A stretch of DNA of 44,621 bases. Source: an uncultured Prevotellaceae bacterium. Its GTDB lineage: Bacteria; Bacteroidota; Bacteroidia; Bacteroidales; Muribaculaceae. The DNA lies in NCBI GenBank assembly GCA_900318065.1, contig ONIY01000032.1, positions 1 through 44,621 on the forward strand, in the 5' to 3' direction. The notes below the pieces were generated by a model, which was given only the letters and a program-made list of their open reading frames with translations, ran no database searches and had not been told where the DNA came from. A program made the position numbers and the translations under genes. Position 1 is the first letter of the stretch; each line of letters opens with the position of its first letter. This document shows, piece by piece, positions 1-38,333 of the stretch.

Positions 1-348
1 ATTTTAAAAACCACGAGAAATATATATCTCCGAGCTTGCGAGGCTTTGCGACACCGATAGGTGCAACTTTGCGAGATTATCGTTCCCTCACCGCCGTTCT
101 ACGTTCCACTTTCCACGCGCCATAGGTGCAACTTTGCGAGATTATTGTGCCCTCACTGGGAATTACACCCACGCAAAAGTTCTCTCACAGGAAAACGACA
201 CCCAGGCAACGGTTCTCTCACAAAGCTGCCACTGCGTGGTCACAAAGTCTGCTTGCGCAGGAATTTTAAAAACCACGAGAAATATATATCTCCGAGCTTG
301 CGAGGCTTTGCGACACCGATAGGTGCAACTTTGCGAGATTATCGTTCC
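1..348 (+). repeat. REP-like hairpin repeat, partial tandem copies
   Basis: This stretch holds several copies of one dispersed repeat. Bases 1-86 and 262-348 are essentially identical. A short piece recurs at 122-150, and the longest copy runs from about 213 to 348. The unit contains small palindromes: CCTGC-TTGC-GCAGG, CACC-GATA-GGTG and CCAC-TGC-GTGG. A diverged inverted copy lies at 4531-4661, beside a REP-associated-type transposase gene. I see no credible coding sequence in 1-591: a 132-codon open frame at 61-459 runs through the repeats and has no protein-like features. Confidence 0.85.
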
Positions 349-437
349 CGCTCAAGTTTACTTGAGTCTTTAACATTTTTTCAACCTTTGCGATGGAAAT
401 ACTTCCTCTTTTGTGGCAATGATTCAAAAATAATTCC

Positions 438-445
438 TACCTTTG
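438..445 (+). promoter_or_regulatory. -7 box (TACCTTTG) for the 592 gene
   Basis: A perfect match to the Bacteroidetes TAnnTTTG box lies about 145 bases upstream of the start of the secreted protein. This implies a long 5' leader that carries the hairpin at 494-530. Confidence 0.6.
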
Positions 446-493
446 CATCAAAATTGTGAGATAAGATGCTTTTATCCATCATCCACACTGCCT

Positions 494-540
494 AAGGTCC
501 TGTATACAAAAGGTTTGTATGCAAGGACTTTTCTGTTTTA
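494..540 (+). terminator. Leader hairpin with T-rich tail (attenuator candidate)
   Basis: AGGTCC and TATACAAA (495-510) can pair with TTTGTATG and AAGGACT (514-530), with a small internal mismatch. The stem is followed by TTCTGTTTTA. It sits inside the leader between the -7 box at 438 and the start at 592, so it could terminate or attenuate the transcript of the downstream gene, or end a small leader RNA. Confidence 0.45.
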
Positions 541-591
541 TAGAAATAGAGATTTTTATAAACATATTTTTTACTAACTACTAATCAATTC

Positions 592-3500
592 ATGCGTATG
601 AAAAAATTACTAACTTTCTTAACCCTGCTCACGCTGTTCTTCACCACAGCGGGAGCGGAAGAAAAGACCATTACACTTGATGTTAATACATTCGGTGCAA
701 CTGATTCTTATGCTTTAAAAGAAGCGGAAGTGGATGGTTTTACATTTGTGGCGAATCAGATCTATAAAGCTGTAGGAGACAATGCTGGTTGTATGCAGTT
801 TAATAAAACTAATGGTCGTTCAGCAAAGGTTTACAATGAGACAGCAATTCCTGGTTTGAAAAGTGTTACAATTAATTACAAAACGATTAAAACTCATGCT
901 GTAACCGATGGTAATGCTTCTCAGCCTTCAACAAATTCTCAAGTTGGAGGAAATACAAATGTGGAAGGTTCAAAGACTTATAATATTACAAGTGGTTCCG
1001 AATATTTCATGTTTGAGTCTACAATAAACGGTGCTTTTTATCTTTATTCAATAGTTGTTACTTACGAAGAAAGCAGCACACCTGCAACCACTTATAGCGT
1101 CAATCTGAACCAGTCAACAGGTGGCACAATTAGTGCAAGCACAACCACTGCTGCCGAGGGTGCTACTGTGACTCTTACTGCCACCCCCGATGCTGGCTAT
1201 CAATTCACAAGCTGGGAAGTTCTTGACGGTGACGCTAATGAGATAACTGTGACAAACAATCAGTTCACCATGCCCGCAAGCAATGTAGAGGTCGAGGCCA
1301 CCTTCACTGAGCTTACCCCTCATGCTATTACCGTCATTGGTGGTTCTGCAAATCACACATCAGCATACCAAGGACAGACTGTAACAGTTACTCCCACAAT
1401 TCCAAGTGGAAAGGTTCTTGACCAAATCACTACTACTCCTGAATTGACATTAACACCAAGCGGCGACAACTACACCTTCACAATGCCAAACGAGGCAGTG
1501 ACCGTAACAATCACCTACAAGGATGCGCCCACCTACACCAATAAATTCGAGCGCATCAATAACACAAGTCAACTCGAGACAGGCGTCCGTTATCTTTTGG
1601 TTTATGAGACAAAACCTGCTGTGATGGGTGCTATCACTAAATACGGCACATCTGTTACATCAGGTTTCACTTATAGCAATGGTGTTATCACACTTAGTGG
1701 GACAGATGCCAAACCTCTGATCCTTGGAGGTGATGCAACCAATGGCTGGACTTTCGACCTTGACGGTAATCTCCTGTCACAAAATAAAAGTAGTGGCACA
1801 TTGAATACCACTAATTCAGACAACACTCTTTGGAATATATCTTTTAGTGGTAATAATGTTGTAATTGGCCATTCAATAGACGGCACTGATTATTCCATTC
1901 AATATAACTCATCAAACCCAAGGTTTGCTAGTTATAGCAGCAATCAGTCTCCCATCCAACTCTACAAAGAGGTAGGTCAGGTTAGCGCTGATAAGCTCTA
2001 TATCATTGGTAACTCTTTGAATGGTGTTACTGGTTGGGATATGACAAAGGGTGTTGAGATGATATATAGCAGTACTACAAACAAATTCTCTGCCGATGTC
2101 TATTTCGATGGTATGGCAAATAGTGGTAAAGATTACTTCCAGTTTGCAAAAGGTATCCCGTCAGAAGGAGATCATATGAATGATTGGGAATCTCTTACAG
2201 GTCGCATTGGAGCTGACTCACAAGGTAATTGCACTGTTGCAGAGGCATGGATGGATGGTAATTCTCCTATGCACCTAAGAGACTATAATGCTATTGAATC
2301 TTTCGAAATCACTCCAGGCCTTTACACTGTTAGTGTGGTTCTTGGTAACTCATGGAACTGCTATGTAAAGAGAAATCCAGTTACCATGACCATCAATAAC
2401 AACACCAGTGGCACTACATATTTCGAGGAAGGCTCTACAAAAACAGCAGTTCTTGTATCTAACTTAACAGAATATGAAGGTGCTAAGATCTACTATACCA
2501 CCGATGGTTCTACTCCAGATGAAAACAGTACTGAATATGGTGGCGAGCCACTTACAATTTCCGAGACTACAACAGTTAAGGCTATTGCAATCTTAAACTA
2601 CATTAAGAGTGAAGTTGCTGTAAGGAATTTCATCATGACTCCTAAGGCTCCAGAGATTACCCCTGCCAGCTGCACATTCAACGAGCCTCTCACAGTGAAC
2701 ATCACTGCCGAGGAAGGTGCCACCATCTACTACACCATCGATGGCAGCACTCCTACCTCGAGCAACAGCACTCAATACACTGGCTCATTCACCGTGAGCG
2801 AGACCACCACCGTTAAGGCAAGGGCTTATTTCGGCGAGGTTTACGGCTCGGTAGCCGAGGCAACATATACCTATGTAGAGCCTGTAGAGCCAGGTACTGA
2901 CAACTTCATTAGAGTAACAAGTAAGGATGACATTGTAGCAGGCCGTGAGTACATTATTCTTACAGCCGACTACACATGGGCAATGGGCGCTGTTGATAAT
3001 AAGAAGGCAACAGCCACACAAGATTTTGAAATAAGTCTGGATCACTCGACCGTTACAGCTGGCGATGCTGTTAATATCTTGAAATTAGGTGATGGTAATG
3101 TGTATGAAAACAATAACACTAAATATTGGACACTCACACAACAAGACGGAAAGAAATTCCTCCTTAGCCAAGGCGGAGCCGATATTCAAGCGCAAACTTA
3201 TGTTGCTAGTGGTTGCACCGATGAGTTTATTATCAACATCACAGCTGGAACCCACGAAAACAATTATGCAGTAGTCTCTGGCACTGGAGGACGCCAAATT
3301 TGGTATCAGAATAATGGTAATGAAGCTGGAGTCTTTGGCCATTATTCAAATAATACAGCAAATAATTCAACTTCTTATCAAAGGATTTTCCTCTACTATC
3401 GTGATGCTGTTAAAATAGTTGATCTCAAGCACCTTTGCAAGAATGGTGTAGAGAATCAGTCTTACAAGATTTCCAACGACTTGCAGGTGGCCTATGTTGA

Positions 3501-4359
3501 TGTTGAGAGCAATGTTCTTTGGGTTAAGGACGCAGATGGTCAGTCAATCTGGTCAACTAGTCCTGCCGAGGATGACGACAACTTCCCAATCGAGATTCAG
3601 GGCAACACCCGCCTTAATCAAGCTGATTATGACCAGAGCAACTGGCTCGAGGTTCACTTGACAGGCAACAATGCCAACAGCTTCAAAGACAAGGTTATCA
3701 AGGGTGGTTCTATCAGAGGTAAATTCACCAGCAAGTTGAACCCCACCATGGCCGATGTTACTCTCACAACCGAAGACATCAACACCGAGAGCACTACTGC
3801 TTATGCTCCTAACTACTACATGGCAGCCAACTTCTTCGGTAGCCAAAATTGCGGTTCGGAGATGGCAGGTCATGAAGGCCATGGTCACTTCTTCTTCATG
3901 AATCCTAAACCTCAAGAGTATGCTCACGTAGTATGGGCGGTCTACAATGCAGATGACAATACAATGAACATGACAACCGCCACAGAACATAACACTCACA
4001 AGTTCCAGGGTTCGTTTAAGGTTAACATGAGTATGAATGACGGTATTGAGACCCTTGGTAATGGTGTTGGATATAATGACTTCACCGCAATCATTCGCTT
4101 GAAGACTGCAGGTAAATCAGCTCCAATGCTGAAGGACAGCAAGCCTGCAAATGCTGAATATGAGGTATTCCCATTGAATATAACCAACCAGACTCCAACC
4201 GCCATCAACACTGTTGAGGCTGGCAACGGCGTTGTCAAGAGCGTGAAGTATGTTAACGTGGCCGGTATGGTAAGCGATTTTCCCTTCCAGGGCGTAAACA
4301 TCGTGGTTACTGAGTACAGCGACGGCTCTCGCTCGACTAGCAAGATGCTCAGGAAGTAA
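592..4359 (+). CDS. Secreted multidomain surface protein with bacterial repeats and chitobiase C-terminal-like domains
   Basis: A 1255-residue exported protein. Residues 1-22 form a signal peptide ending at TAGA; a second in-frame ATG at 598 would give the same leader. Residues about 169-240 and 244-308 look like InlB/bacterial-repeat modules (G-Y-x-F-x-x-W, then F-T-M-P). Residues about 600-683 and 688-760 look like the chitobiase/hexosaminidase C-terminal module (I-Y-Y-T-x-D-G-S-T-P). Two related blocks near 315-460 and 770-930 share a V-x-x-G-R/V-x-Y-L/I pattern. The last 45 or so residues (VKYVNVAGMV, then GVNIVV, then K at the end) resemble a short type-A type IX secretion sorting domain. 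No catalytic domain is recognisable, so binding or adhesion is inferred. The gene has its own promoter and terminator and is bracketed by inverted repeats. Confidence 0.8.
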   Translation: MRMKKLLTFLTLLTLFFTTAGAEEKTITLDVNTFGATDSYALKEAEVDGFTFVANQIYKAVGDNAGCMQFNKTNGRSAKVYNETAIPGLKSVTINYKTIKTHAVTDGNASQPSTNSQVGGNTNVEGSKTYNITSGSEYFMFESTINGAFYLYSIVVTYEESSTPATTYSVNLNQSTGGTISASTTTAAEGATVTLTATPDAGYQFTSWEVLDGDANEITVTNNQFTMPASNVEVEATFTELTPHAITVIGGSANHTSAYQGQTVTVTPTIPSGKVLDQITTTPELTLTPSGDNYTFTMPNEAVTVTITYKDAPTYTNKFERINNTSQLETGVRYLLVYETKPAVMGAITKYGTSVTSGFTYSNGVITLSGTDAKPLILGGDATNGWTFDLDGNLLSQNKSSGTLNTTNSDNTLWNISFSGNNVVIGHSIDGTDYSIQYNSSNPRFASYSSNQSPIQLYKEVGQVSADKLYIIGNSLNGVTGWDMTKGVEMIYSSTTNKFSADVYFDGMANSGKDYFQFAKGIPSEGDHMNDWESLTGRIGADSQGNCTVAEAWMDGNSPMHLRDYNAIESFEITPGLYTVSVVLGNSWNCYVKRNPVTMTINNNTSGTTYFEEGSTKTAVLVSNLTEYEGAKIYYTTDGSTPDENSTEYGGEPLTISETTTVKAIAILNYIKSEVAVRNFIMTPKAPEITPASCTFNEPLTVNITAEEGATIYYTIDGSTPTSSNSTQYTGSFTVSETTTVKARAYFGEVYGSVAEATYTYVEPVEPGTDNFIRVTSKDDIVAGREYIILTADYTWAMGAVDNKKATATQDFEISLDHSTVTAGDAVNILKLGDGNVYENNNTKYWTLTQQDGKKFLLSQGGADIQAQTYVASGCTDEFIINITAGTHENNYAVVSGTGGRQIWYQNNGNEAGVFGHYSNNTANNSTSYQRIFLYYRDAVKIVDLKHLCKNGVENQSYKISNDLQVAYVDVESNVLWVKDADGQSIWSTSPAEDDDNFPIEIQGNTRLNQADYDQSNWLEVHLTGNNANSFKDKVIKGGSIRGKFTSKLNPTMADVTLTTEDINTESTTAYAPNYYMAANFFGSQNCGSEMAGHEGHGHFFFMNPKPQEYAHVVWAVYNADDNTMNMTTATEHNTHKFQGSFKVNMSMNDGIETLGNGVGYNDFTAIIRLKTAGKSAPMLKDSKPANAEYEVFPLNITNQTPTAINTVEAGNGVVKSVKYVNVAGMVSDFPFQGVNIVVTEYSDGSRSTSKMLRK

Positions 4360-4420
4360 GCCTCACAGGCCCCCAGCGGTGGAACATGACCAGCGTGTCG
4401 TGATTCCATCCAGATAGAAA

Positions 4421-4465
4421 ATCACCCGCCCCCGCAAGTATGCCCAGGGCGGGTGATCTTTTTTC
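4421..4465 (+). terminator. Intrinsic terminator of the 592 gene
   Basis: A perfect 11-bp stem, ATCACCCGCCC (4421-4431) with GGGCGGGTGAT (4447-4457), is followed by CTTTTTTCT. It sits 62 bases after the stop of the secreted protein. Confidence 0.85.
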
Positions 4466-4530
4466 TCGCCCGCTCACGGGGGAGGGGGGTAATGATTATT
4501 CCAGCGTGAGAATTGTTTTCCTGTGAGGTC

Positions 4531-4661
4531 ACAATAATCTCACAAAGTTGCACCTATCGGTGTCAAAAAGCCTCGCAAGCTCGGAGATATAAATTTCTCG
4601 TTTTTTAAAATTCCTGCGCAAGCAGGCTTTGTGACCACGGAGTGGCAGCTTTGTGAGAGAA
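4531..4661 (-). repeat. Inverted copy of the REP-like repeat
   Basis: The minus-strand reading matches 213-343 along its whole length with scattered substitutions. The two copies are therefore inverted repeats flanking the 592-4359 gene. This copy lies about 275 bases upstream of the transposase start. A further short match (GTTTTCCTGTGAG, 4514-4526) corresponds inversely to bases near 184-196. Confidence 0.85.
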
Positions 4662-4681
4662 TTGCAGCTTGGGGCGGGCTC

Positions 4682-4855
4682 CCCTCTCCACTCTGCACCC
4701 TTCCCTCTGCACCCTTCCCTCTTCCCTCTTCCCTCTCCCCTCTCCTCTCTCCCCTCTGCACTCTGCACTCTGCACTCTCTCCTCTGCACTCTCTCCTCTG
4801 CACTCTCTCCTCTTCCCTCTCTCCTCTTCCCTCTCTCCTCTTCCTTCTCCCCTCT
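4682..4855. repeat. Polypyrimidine heptad tract
   Basis: About 170 bases of almost pure C/T on the plus strand. It reads as consecutive 7-mers of the types TTCCCTC, TCTCCTC, TCCCCTC and TGCACTC. Together with the terminator and the inverted repeat it fills the 577-base gap 4360-4936. It creates long spurious open frames on both strands, which I discount. Confidence 0.85.
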
Positions 4856-4936
4856 TTTTGTGTTGCAAGGCATTTGCCTTGTTCAAAATTGTGGTTTTTT
4901 GTTGCGGGAATGGGTTTTAGTGAGTATTTTTGCATT

Positions 4937-5911
4937 ATGGAAGATAATCGAGAGGAGCGTCGCCGCCAGTGGTGGCTTCGTAATAAGGGCAAATATGAGA
5001 AGAGGGAGTCTATGCTTCGCCGCATGGCTGGGCATGACTATTATGGTCGTTGCATCTACATGATAACGCTGAATGTTGCTGGCCGTCGCGACTTGCTTGG
5101 CGAGTTGCGTGGTGCTGATGCGTGCCACAGCGAGGCTTGGGTTGCGGCTTCGAGTCTTGGAGAGAAGGTGATAGGCTATTGGCAGGAGATTCCCTCGCAT
5201 CACCCTGAGGTGAGAGTTCTCAAGCACCAGCTTATGCCCGATCATTTTCACGGCATCATCTTTGTGACAGAGAAGATTCCGGTTCACCTGGGCACAATCA
5301 TCAACAGTTTTAAGAGTGCCTGCACCTTTGCGGCAAAAGAGCTGGGAATTTCCACTCCGTTGTGGGAGAAAGGCTATAATGATTCTATTTTGAAGAGCCG
5401 CGGCCAGTATGACCACATGAAGAGTTACTTGGCCGACAACCCGCGGCGCCTCATGGTAAAGAGGAGCTCAAGGGATTTTTTCACTGTCAGGCACTCGCTG
5501 CATGTTGGTGGCCGCGAGGTGGATGCCGTGGGCAATGTGTTCTTGCTTGATTATCCTGTGAAGGTGGCGGTGCGTTGCTCTCGCAGCTTGAGTGAGGAGG
5601 AGATAGATGAGAAGGTGTCGCAATTTCTTGAGATGGCTCGCCATGGCACGGTGCTTGTTTCTCCCGCTATCAGCCCTGGGGAGAAGAAGGTGATGAAGAT
5701 GGCCCAGGAGGCTCAATGCCGGGTAATAAAGATTGTGGACAATGGGTTCTCGGATATGTATAAGCCAGCCGGGAAAGACTTTGACGCTTGCGCCAGGGGC
5801 GACTTGCTGCTGGTGTCGCCATGGGCGCATCGCAACGAGAAAATCGACCTCACAAAGCAGCTGTGCGAAGAGCTTAACAGCCTTGCTGCCGCTATCGCTC
5901 AGGGAGAGTAG
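4937..5911 (+). CDS. REP-associated-type (IS200/Y1-like HUH) transposase with C-terminal extension
   Basis: A 324-residue protein. The N-terminal half has the Y1/RAYT layout: YMITLNV near 41-47, then the HUH motif in MPDHFHGIIFV (H103, H105), a helix leading to GYNDSIL (147-152), and YLADNPRR (164-171). Y164 or Y158 is the candidate nucleophile. Family members nick and join single-stranded DNA at hairpin sites. Residues about 195-324 go beyond the usual RAYT length and contain VLVSPAISPGEK, VIKIVDNGF and LLLVSPWAHRN, which suggest a Rossmann-like DprA/SMF-type fold; that reading is inference. I start at the ATG at 4937 because the frame upstream runs through a pyrimidine tract and the REP-like repeat and is low complexity. 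Linkage to that repeat supports a RAYT role. Confidence 0.8.
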   Translation: MEDNREERRRQWWLRNKGKYEKRESMLRRMAGHDYYGRCIYMITLNVAGRRDLLGELRGADACHSEAWVAASSLGEKVIGYWQEIPSHHPEVRVLKHQLMPDHFHGIIFVTEKIPVHLGTIINSFKSACTFAAKELGISTPLWEKGYNDSILKSRGQYDHMKSYLADNPRRLMVKRSSRDFFTVRHSLHVGGREVDAVGNVFLLDYPVKVAVRCSRSLSEEEIDEKVSQFLEMARHGTVLVSPAISPGEKKVMKMAQEAQCRVIKIVDNGFSDMYKPAGKDFDACARGDLLLVSPWAHRNEKIDLTKQLCEELNSLAAAIAQGE

Positions 5912-5919
5912 CTTGCTCC

Positions 5920-5995
5920 TCTTGAGCGCCGCTTTTTTCTTGAGCACGGCTTTCTCTTGAGCGCCGCTTTTTTTCTTGAGCGCCGCTCTTCTATT
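5920..5995 (+). repeat. Irregular 17-19 bp repeats (CTTGAGCGCCGCTTT)
   Basis: Four imperfect copies of CTTGAGCGCCGC plus a T-rich spacer stand in a row directly after the transposase gene. They grade into the 56-bp array that follows. Confidence 0.75.
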
Positions 5996-6201
5996 GAACG
6001 CCGCTTGTGCGGCGCAGTACTGGACGGGGCGGGCTCTTGCTGCGCAATACTGAACGCCGCTTGTGCGGCGCAGTACTGGACGGGGCGGGCTCTTGCTGCG
6101 CAATACTGAACGCCGCTTGTGCGGCGCAGTACTGGACGGGGCGGGCTTTGCTGCGCAATACTGAACGCCGCTTGTGCGGCGCAGTACTGGACGGGGCGGG
6201 C
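5996..6201 (+). repeat. 56-bp tandem repeat, 3.7 copies
   Basis: Copies begin at 5996, 6052, 6108 and 6163, giving periods of 56, 56 and 55. The third copy lost one C and the fourth is truncated. Each unit starts with GAACGCCGCTTGTGCGGC, which contains the hairpin GCCGC-TTGT-GCGGC. There are no unique spacers, so this is not a CRISPR array. Confidence 0.9.
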
Positions 6202-6280: not shown

Positions 6281-6925
6281 ATGGTAACGAAGAGGAAAGG
6301 ATATATCGAGGGCCTTATTGAGCAGGGCGAGCACGAGCATCAGGACTTTAAGTATCAGATTACTGACGCGCGCAAGATAGCTCGCTCGATCAGCGCCTTT
6401 GCCAACCATAGCGGGGGCCACCTGCTCGTGGGGGTGAAGGACAACGGCAACATCGTGGGAGTGAGCAGCGACGAGGAGATCTACATGATTGAGCAGGCGG
6501 CGCAGATGTACTGCCAGCCCGAGCAGCAGGTGAAATTTGAGGTGTTTCGTGTCGCTGGTAAGAACGTGCTCAAGGTCGACATCGACGAGGCGAGTGAGAA
6601 ACCCGTGAAGGCGCCCGACGACAACGGCCAGTGGCGCACCTACTACCGCGTGGCCGACGAGAACGTGCTCGCCACCTCCACCCACGCCAAGGTGATGCGG
6701 CGCAAGAGCTCGCCCACGCCCGAGGACGTGGTGATAAACCTCACCGAGAAGGAGGAGCTGCTGCTCGACTACCTGCAAGATCACGGCGGCATCACGCTCA
6801 GTGGCTATGAGCGACTGGCCCACATCTCGTTCTTCGCAGCCCAGCGCACCGTGGTGAAGCTGTGCGAAATGGGCATCCTCGACATCCAGTACCACCACAA
6901 CCAGTGCCTCCTCACGCTCGCATAG
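6281..6925 (+). CDS. AlbA_2-domain (Schlafen AlbA-like) DNA-binding protein
   Basis: A 214-residue cytoplasmic protein. Residues about 1-120 match the AlbA_2 domain: the opening GLIEQGEHEHQDFKY, the conserved ARSISAFANHSGGHLLVGV, then D-N-G-x-I-V-G-V and a TYYRVAD strand. This domain is typical of Bacteroidetes regulators and putative helicase-linked proteins. Residues about 150-214 look like a winged helix (EELLLDYLQDHGGITLSGYERLA, written here in parts: EELLLDYLQDHG then ITLSGYERLA), which would give sequence-specific binding. The gene stands alone between repeat-filled spacers and has its own near-leaderless promoter. A transcriptional regulator role is inferred; the target is unknown. Confidence 0.75.
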   Translation: MVTKRKGYIEGLIEQGEHEHQDFKYQITDARKIARSISAFANHSGGHLLVGVKDNGNIVGVSSDEEIYMIEQAAQMYCQPEQQVKFEVFRVAGKNVLKVDIDEASEKPVKAPDDNGQWRTYYRVADENVLATSTHAKVMRRKSSPTPEDVVINLTEKEELLLDYLQDHGGITLSGYERLAHISFFAAQRTVVKLCEMGILDIQYHHNQCLLTLA

Positions 6926-34885: not shown

Positions 34886-34935
34886 TGGTATCGCAAGGCG
34901 GTGCCTTGCGACCTGCCGACTGGTTGTGAGGCTTC
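34884..34935 (+). repeat. Palindromic dispersed repeat, copy 1
   Basis: TTTGGTATCGCAAGGC-GGT-GCCTTGCGA then CCTGCCGACTGGTTGTGAGG. An inverted copy with few differences lies at 38286-38333. Both copies abut a heptad tract. Confidence 0.85.
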
Positions 34936-38285: not shown

Positions 38286-38333
38286 AGCCTCACAATCGGT
38301 CGGCGGGTCGCAAGGCACCGCCTTGCGATACCA
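38286..38333 (-). repeat. Palindromic dispersed repeat, copy 2 (inverted)
   Basis: Minus-strand reading equals the 34884-34935 repeat, including GCAAGGC-GGT-GCCTTGC. Together they bracket the lpxL-like, mtaB and AraC genes as an inverted pair about 3.4 kb apart. Confidence 0.85.

Follow-up and report, generated by a model that had tools for sequence, protein, structure and literature searches.

A RAYT-type HUH nuclease gene with a DprA-like domain and its own palindromic repeats in the Bacteroidales: a putative REPtron

In the REPtrons described so far, the gene for a RAYT (REP-associated tyrosine transposase, or TnpAREP) is accompanied by its own repetitive extragenic palindromic (REP) units. 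TnpAREP cuts at CT beside a hairpin with a GTAG foot, through a tyrosine-linked intermediate (PMC8266576). Atypical feet are permitted in RAYT subclasses 2.6 and 3 (PMC6006769), and hence a GTAG or GTGG foot is not a defining feature of the whole RAYT class. As tabulated in the same article, subclass 2.6 consists of 179-aa proteins of Bacteroidetes with the motifs NH[LIV]H, WQ and YIH[QN]NP and 'atypical secondary structures', and subclass 2.3 of 325-aa proteins of Chromatiales and Alteromonadales with a long C-terminal tail, the motifs NHYH and YVDLNP and no REPs found. Here we analyse a stretch of 44,621 nt (hereinafter the window; contig ONIY01000032.1 of assembly GCA_900318065.1, an uncultured Prevotellaceae bacterium assigned to Muribaculaceae in GTDB) that carries a gene for a RAYT-type protein, an array of 26-nt palindromes directly 3' of it and copies of a different repeat of about 130 bp. 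We assign a probability of about 0.8 to the reading that this locus is a REPtron, in which a putatively active RAYT is encoded among palindromic REP units of its own. The genome of the window (G000; 2.99 Mb, 97 contigs) was considered as part of a congeneric set of 61 genomes and alongside a draw of 119 genomes from 30 genera of the family.

The RAYT-type protein appears to comprise two domains (Table 1). The motif PDHFH occupies residues 101-105 and the catalytic-type Tyr164 lies within Y-L-A-D-N-P; H103, H105, Y164, N168 and P169 are invariant across 72 aligned sequences. The NCBIfam family REP_Tyr_transpos matches the protein at E 3.6e-8, with 33.4 bits against a curated cut-off of 80, which is a model cut-off rather than a biological definition; the same family matches 30 of 30 relatives at E<=0.1, and a protein above the cut-off is found in a single one of the 61 congeneric genomes. 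Pfam assigns no family to the protein at E<=0.001, with Y1_Tnp surfacing at E 0.1, and a single-sequence search of the PDB returned nothing at E<=1. The AlphaFold2 model of the whole protein, built with 72 relatives, has a mean predicted local distance difference test score (pLDDT) of 94.6 and is matched by Foldseek to IS200/IS605 TnpA, including many IS608 and ISDra2 chains, to Escherichia coli TnpAREP (4er8; root-mean-square deviation 2.7 over 144 columns, E 2e-5), and also to DprA and ShosA. The motifs, the predicted TnpAREP fold and the family match below cut-off agree with the initial annotation, which had called this gene a RAYT-type HUH/Y1 transposase. When modelled alone, the C-terminal 132 residues reach a pLDDT of 95.1 and retrieve 12 chains at E<=0.001, every one DprA or ShosA, and profile comparison with DprA gives a weak match (E 0.06-0.66). 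According to these models, the C-terminal domain has a DprA-type Rossmann fold, and the protein is a fusion in which a DprA-like domain follows a RAYT-type Y1 HUH domain.

Relatives of this protein (E<=0.001, fragments counted) are present in 47 of the 61 congeneric genomes, often several in each. G000 itself encodes four intact, diverged paralogs of this RAYT type, with the other intact RAYTs showing 44-47% identity to that of the window, and additionally a distant relative, a truncated copy (L041, C37) and a fragment (L042, C6), the latter two representing paralog decay. Orthologs (63-66% identity) were identified in G011 (66%), G066 (63%) and G069 (64%), and no full-length relative above 53% was detected in the remaining congeneric genomes of the 61. 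With three loci added from GTDB (L169-L171), there are six distinct ortholog loci besides the window, in seven stretches; a further locus, L172, coincides with that of G066 letter for letter in the gene and upstream flank and was counted once. A pattern scan of GTDB yielded at least 522 relatives, the best 80 of which come from records titled, for instance, as uncultured Bacteroidales, Prevotellaceae, Muribaculaceae, Prevotella and Bacteroidaceae, the host, where stated, being mostly a ruminant; judging from these titles, a Muribaculaceae-like group is likely. An IS200/IS605 insertion sequence was considered as an identity of the gene and rejected, given that G000 contains no second copy above 52% identity and that the upstream neighbour is common to the six distinct ortholog loci. 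In several RAYT paralogs (G033:C1:316066-317061, G007:C48:100263-101264, G018:C14:263843-264835, G025:C14:21903-22916 and others), the match falls into two blocks with a break near residue 140 inside a single open frame, which we read as an in-frame insertion between the HUH and tyrosine motifs; subclass 2.4 RAYTs are reported to take up REPs at the corresponding place (PMC6006769).

The palindromes 3' of the gene, on the minus strand, have the form GTACTG-CGCCGC-ACAA-GCGGCG-TTCA, and the consensus of the family is GTAYTG-CGCCGC-N4-GCGGCG-TTCA (26 nt). One isolated hairpin built in this way, reading with the gene, is located 51 nt 5' of the start codon (Table 1); taken alone, it folds at most slightly better than shuffled sequences (z -1.3), and a hairpin of this layout is found 61-89 nt 5' of the gene in all six distinct ortholog loci. 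Units are present around the gene in the window and in 6/6 of these loci, compared with none in shuffles: the G011 locus has three units upstream and lacks the 130-bp repeat, and in G066 and G069 the palindrome adjoins the ortholog gene. These loci rule out the possibility that the palindrome is an accident of the window alone. A search of the 61 genomes allowing one mismatch gave 9 places in G000, 9 in G001, 1 in G010, 3 in G011, 4 in G066 and 4 in G069, with no match in the same genomes for a reversed-palindrome control; that is, the palindrome is present in 4/4 genomes with an ortholog (>=63%) versus 2/57 others (Fisher test, 3e-5, uncorrected for kinship and hence indicative). The strict pattern was absent from 76 other GTDB loci (L173-L248) and also failed to catch L172 and L260, the stem of which is divergent. 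In a gap-free alignment of 26 units, 25 of them selected by a pattern together with a minimum of four formed pairs out of six and one (the hairpin upstream of the window gene) added by eye, 96.2% of the 156 cells are paired, a value that leans upward owing to this preselection, and five of the six pairs show double changes. None of 500 shuffles equalled the alignment in pairing, double changes or covariation score; against the same shuffles, its count of additional pair types is unremarkable. The foot is GTAC in the window and mostly GTAT in the orthologs. The window RAYT is, then, flanked by its own multi-copy palindrome, the foot of which is neither GTAG nor GTGG, and, judging from these distributions and alignments, this palindrome is the cognate repeat of the RAYT, passing tests in which the 130-bp repeat falls short (see below). 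Recognition of the palindrome by the RAYT is supported, at the level of sequence comparison, by this co-distribution and covariation.

The association of individual RAYTs with palindromes of their own is a general pattern in the genus. For 64 usable loci (the L042 fragment and the short-class L043 were excluded beforehand, and the flanks of L164 were unusable), a repeat of at least 30 bits was shared by both flanks of the gene in 39 cases, compared with 1 of 130 non-cognate flank pairs, which combine different RAYTs of the same genome. Among flank pairs from different genomes, 232 of 3902 reached this score, the top ones listed being loci at one shared chromosomal place. A second REP family, that of the C9 RAYT, occupies 20 places in G000, two of them beside its gene and two inside the window, and was not found in three other species. 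A third, belonging to a G009 RAYT (L125), has matches in 25 of the 61 genomes; for 13 of the 25, the top-scoring match is no more than 101 nt away from a RAYT. Distinct hairpins are concentrated near RAYT genes (265 in 38 kb, versus 142 in 145 kb farther off; for the GTDB loci, 242 in 48 kb versus 218 in 191 kb). In the 8 nt 5' of the stems, GTAT is the most enriched tetranucleotide (55 observed versus 6.9 expected from random positions in the same flanks), and GTAC and GTAG are likewise raised. The GTAT foot accompanies 28/265 near hairpins versus 2/142 distant ones, and 26/242 versus 3/218 in the GTDB loci. The tetranucleotide count covered 145 loci, some of them represented twice in the two collections, with hairpins made unique by sequence.

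Other RAYT classes coexist with the one described here. The 184-aa RAYT of L043 (G000 C29) has a canonical palindrome with a GTAG foot, GTAGGGACAAGGCGTGCCTTGTCC, on both sides, and is a classical REPtron within G000; this palindrome also occurs near several copies of the 130-bp repeat. Proteins of a third class, of about 270-320 aa (L298 in G000 C36, L300, L302, L310 and L311; MTNHIHLL and YIHYNP where read), are encoded at five loci in which GGGGACGG- or GGGGTCGG-type repeats adjoin the gene, resembling the TIRYT repeats as described in PMC6006769. At one conserved chromosomal place, the RAYT is oriented one way in L113, L115, L136, L141 and L143 and the opposite way in L139, L142 and L128, with the order of the flanks constant, so that the RAYT cassette is inverted; L140 shows another arrangement, with the downstream flank turned.

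The repeat of about 130 bp, which was noticed in the initial annotation as a hairpin-rich family with copies at 1-348 and an inverted copy at 4531-4661, is indeed such a family. The segments 1-87 and 263-349 agree at every one of their 87 nt, and 4531-4661 is an inverted copy with 93% identity to most of 200-350. Beyond this locus, G000 contains further copies, with 36 BLAST matches over 15 contigs, that of the window included, and 5 of these 15 contigs terminate within 500 nt of a match (in the window, at base 1), so that the copy number is probably underestimated. Thirteen full copies from four genomes (8 from G000, 3 from G011 and 1 each from G001 and G030), chosen by a pattern of the arms plus one hairpin, with the odd match L098 left out, could be aligned. 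Their common plan includes an outer stem, TCnnAAAGYTG...CARCTTTnnGA, with one small hairpin per arm, and an inner stem, TCnnAAAG...CTTTnnGA, which adds another hairpin to each arm, as well as an AT-rich centre. Across the alignment 91.5% of 481 cells are paired, with double-sided changes in 9 of 37 pairs, and pairing falls to 32-41% in controls with slid partners. The outer side hairpins are 100% paired, the inner 5' hairpin 98.5% and the inner 3' hairpin 74%, the last value being lowered by a pair of neighbouring G-A mismatches in most copies. The folding energy of the full copy at 216-338 is no better than that of shuffles (z -0.5), and the inverted copy at 4538-4658 folds better than its shuffles (z -3.9). 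In L053 (1095-1198), the outer side hairpins are exchanged with the inner ones, as though the middle of the copy had been inverted. The 130-bp repeat is thus a dispersed, covarying four-hairpin element. With the covariance model R1, it was detected at E<=0.01 in 11 of the 61 congeneric genomes, weakly in G026, and at E<=0.001 in 3 genomes of the family draw, all congeneric and two of them additional (G123 and G143); the search rows count both strands of this near-palindrome, so that places are fewer than rows. Hence the repeat is present in at least 12 species of one Bacteroidales genus.

As to its origin, we would give roughly even odds that the 130-bp repeat is either a non-autonomous element mobilised by some non-RAYT enzyme or an old element of REPIN-like type, its RAYT having disappeared from the genomes sampled. 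Such an origin is consistent with the two inverted arms, each made of two TCnnAAAG-plus-hairpin modules, with the restriction to 1 of 30 genera among the 119 family genomes and with the presence of the repeat in the window and its absence, in the interval of the inverted copy, from all six distinct ortholog loci. On the other side of the balance, neither an enzyme nor a target duplication nor any mobility was detected for it, target duplications and other neighbour genes not having been searched systematically, and 6 of the 13 full copies overlap a mechanical open reading frame of at least 100 aa, the other 7 being clear of any.

It is improbable that the 130-bp repeat is the substrate of the window RAYT and was spread by it, the partnership proposed in the initial annotation. 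The repeat lies about 280 nt 5' of the gene, is rich in covarying hairpins and occurs in 4/4 ortholog-bearing genomes versus 6/57 others (7 counting one weak match; Fisher test, 4e-4, for the 6/57 version), an association that shared descent within one subclade would also account for. However, across 193 other RAYT stretches (48 + 69 + 76, with flanks of 0.2-7 kb, part of them counted twice in two collections), the covariance model found no copy adjoining any RAYT, and the only stretch containing the repeat is that of the C9 RAYT of G000, 4 kb from the gene; BLAST likewise placed it beside no other RAYT locus searched. Moreover, six species (G001, G010, G015, G030, G063 and G071) possess the repeat without an ortholog of this RAYT, G001 (89% complete) yielding no RAYT in either protein or family searches, and no GTAN directly precedes the hairpins of the 13 aligned copies. 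Together, the absence beside other RAYTs and the presence in ortholog-free species indicate that the 130-bp repeat is probably not a substrate of this RAYT. The C29, C36, C9, C48, C53 and C37 RAYTs were rejected as alternative partners since no copy is nearby, that of C9 being 4 kb off. By the features expected of REPs and REPINs, the repeat is a dispersed inverted pair of hairpin modules that does not adjoin RAYTs across species; it is a separate element that stands beside the RAYT gene in this genome alone. What survives of the original suggestion of a Bacteroidales counterpart of the REP/RAYT pair is that the genus does have REP-like families tied to RAYTs, the fitting partner here being the 26-nt palindrome.

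Another reading of the palindromes is that they are common terminators, or hairpins that stabilise mRNA, and lie near RAYTs by chance. They are intergenic and shaped as stem-loops, and 3' of the upstream gene there is a distinct inverted repeat that resembles a terminator (Table 1); nevertheless, they differ between paralogs of one genome and match across both flanks of one gene, and their common GTAN foot, tandem arrangement and, in one family, wide dispersal are not expected of terminators, so we give this alternative very little weight. An artefact of assembly or binning, in which repeat collapse in draft genomes joined the repeats to the gene, can hardly be right: some G000 contigs do end at the 130-bp repeat, as noted above, but the same gene with the same palindromes recurs in independent genomes.

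Several observations weigh against the reading of the locus as a REPtron. The match of the protein to the NCBIfam RAYT model stays under the cut-off, and the foot is GTAC/GTAT instead of GTAG. Dispersal of the window REP is modest, with 5 places elsewhere in G000 and none elsewhere in G011, and the palindrome occurs without a detected ortholog in G001 and G010, in the former at 9 places with zero RAYTs found. Across the genus, 25 of the 64 loci lack a repeat on both flanks, the window passes this test solely through a 24-nt linker present in both flanks and not through the palindrome, and 94 of the 145 loci have zero hairpins with a GTAN foot by the strict test. Furthermore, all comparisons draw on fragmented draft genomes, many of which are metagenome-assembled according to their titles, and the ortholog loci share descent, so that their counts are not independent.

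If the locus is a REPtron, the HUH domain would bind the REP hairpin in single-stranded form, as it becomes accessible on the lagging strand or in the course of repair, with the GTAY foot read as a guide, and the strand would be cut and rejoined beside the hairpin by analogy with the action of E. coli TnpAREP on GTAG REPs. Known members of the DprA fold handle single strands for recombination, and the DprA-like domain may hold the single strand or hand the cut product over to recombination proteins. Such a hand-over could allow REPs to be copied in tandem beside the gene and occasionally elsewhere. A bolder and, in our view, unlikely version is that one protein combines an HUH nuclease cutting a chosen hairpin with a DprA-like domain that takes the strand for RecA-type annealing, and that several such machines with hairpin codes of their own operate in each genome, their REPs forming private populations able to flip or duplicate their own gene. 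The fusion of a nuclease to a DprA-fold domain suggests a specific and testable route from cutting to copying and bears on the questions of how REPs are spread by RAYTs and for what reason they are retained in bacteria. A single genus provides dozens of candidate enzyme-hairpin pairs, often with several diverged paralogs per cell, enough for reading a recognition code from sequence variation and testing cross-reactivity. The case also corrects a tempting assumption, namely that the repeat nearest to a RAYT is its cognate one.

Table 1. Coordinates of the RAYT-type gene, the repeats and the neighbouring features in the window
Feature	Position	Strand	Details or source
RAYT-type gene, 324 aa (codons 4937-5908), Y1 HUH + predicted DprA-like domain	4937..5911	+	profiles, fold
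HUH/Y1 core, ~residues 39-185	5051..5491	+	alignment of 72; fold matches 2xma, 2vjv, 4er8
Predicted C-terminal DprA-like Rossmann domain, residues 193-324	5513..5908	+	AlphaFold2, Foldseek, weak profile match
REP array, four 26-nt units (5995-6020, 6051-6076, 6107-6132, 6162-6187)	5995..6187	-	55-56-bp spacing
Degenerate half-units GAGCGCCGCTT... running into the REP array	5920..5990	.	repeat family D5
Single hairpin GTGTTG-CAAGGC-ATTT-GCCTTG-TTCA	4860..4885	+	spotted by eye
130-bp repeat, full copy	216..338	+	BLAST, pattern, covariance model
130-bp repeat, partial copy truncated by contig start	1..87	+	BLAST, covariance model
130-bp repeat, 31-nt piece	122..152	+	repeat search, BLAST
130-bp repeat, inverted full copy	4538..4658	-	BLAST, pattern, covariance model
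1255-aa protein with chitobiase-C-terminal-like, Fn3-associated and InlB-repeat-like domains	592..4359	+	profile search
Terminator-like inverted repeat 3' of the 1255-aa gene	4412-4466		repeat search
Dispersed copy of the C9-RAYT REP	34889..34930	-	repeat search
Dispersed copy of the C9-RAYT REP	38289..38330	+	repeat search

A homologue of the 1255-aa protein, which the initial annotation took to be secreted, is encoded upstream of the RAYT in 6/6 distinct ortholog loci. Its gene in the window is indeed bracketed by inverted copies of the 130-bp repeat, as initially remarked; the suggestion that recombination between them could invert it finds no support, the orientation of the homologue relative to the RAYT being constant in the six loci (seven stretches). 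Between the repeats and the RAYT gene (4679-4855), there are long polypyrimidine arrays of short units, CCTCTGCACTCT..., with copies 14 or 21 nt apart, and such arrays likewise precede the RAYT in L172 and L260. Immediately after the REP array, a Schlafen/AlbA_2-domain protein is encoded (6281-6925), for which no match was found in the 8 stretches searched (the seven ortholog stretches and L173). No Rfam family matches the window at gathering scores.

Subclass 2.6 of Quentin is reportedly the same as group 5 of Bertels. The proteins considered here resemble this subclass, as described in PMC6006769, in phylum, in repeats without the GT[AG]G consensus and in the presence of copies elsewhere in the genome, and differ from it in a median length of 329 aa, DH[LIFVM]H in 71/72 sequences, mostly WE, and YxxDNP in 69/72. 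With subclass 2.3 they share length, WE and a long C-terminal addition, whereas the host orders, the NHYH and YVDLNP motifs and the REPs set them apart from it as described. Thus, the motifs, length and palindromes fit neither subclass 2.6 nor 2.3 as tabulated in that article, the main text of which does not contain the terms 'DprA', 'Smf' or 'Rossmann'; no description of a RAYT-DprA or HUH-DprA fusion was found in the literature searched, most subscription papers being beyond reach. The C-terminal domain has the same predicted Rossmann fold as DprA and ShosA (TM-score, normalized by query length, 0.65-0.74), differing from them in sequence (~20% identity) and in the fusion to an HUH domain. 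Like REPINs and bacterial interspersed mosaic elements (BIMEs), both the 130-bp repeat and certain RAYT flanks (L125) are inverted pairs of hairpin modules; the 130-bp repeat departs from REPINs and BIMEs in carrying two hairpins on each arm and in having neither a GTAG foot nor an identified RAYT. The RAYT/TnpAREP REPtrons of class 2 Y1 HUH proteins, exemplified by E. coli TnpAREP (4er8; PMC6006769, PMC8266576), share with the window locus the HUH and Y---NP motifs, the fold as predicted, and the organization in which a gene is flanked by its own palindromes, with one family per gene and several per genome, whereas the window RAYT differs in the extra DprA-like domain, the GTAT/GTAC rather than GTAG foot and the NCBIfam score below cut-off. 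On the strength of these sequence comparisons, we consider the system a genuine Bacteroidales RAYT/REP system and a variant of the known RAYT/REP type.

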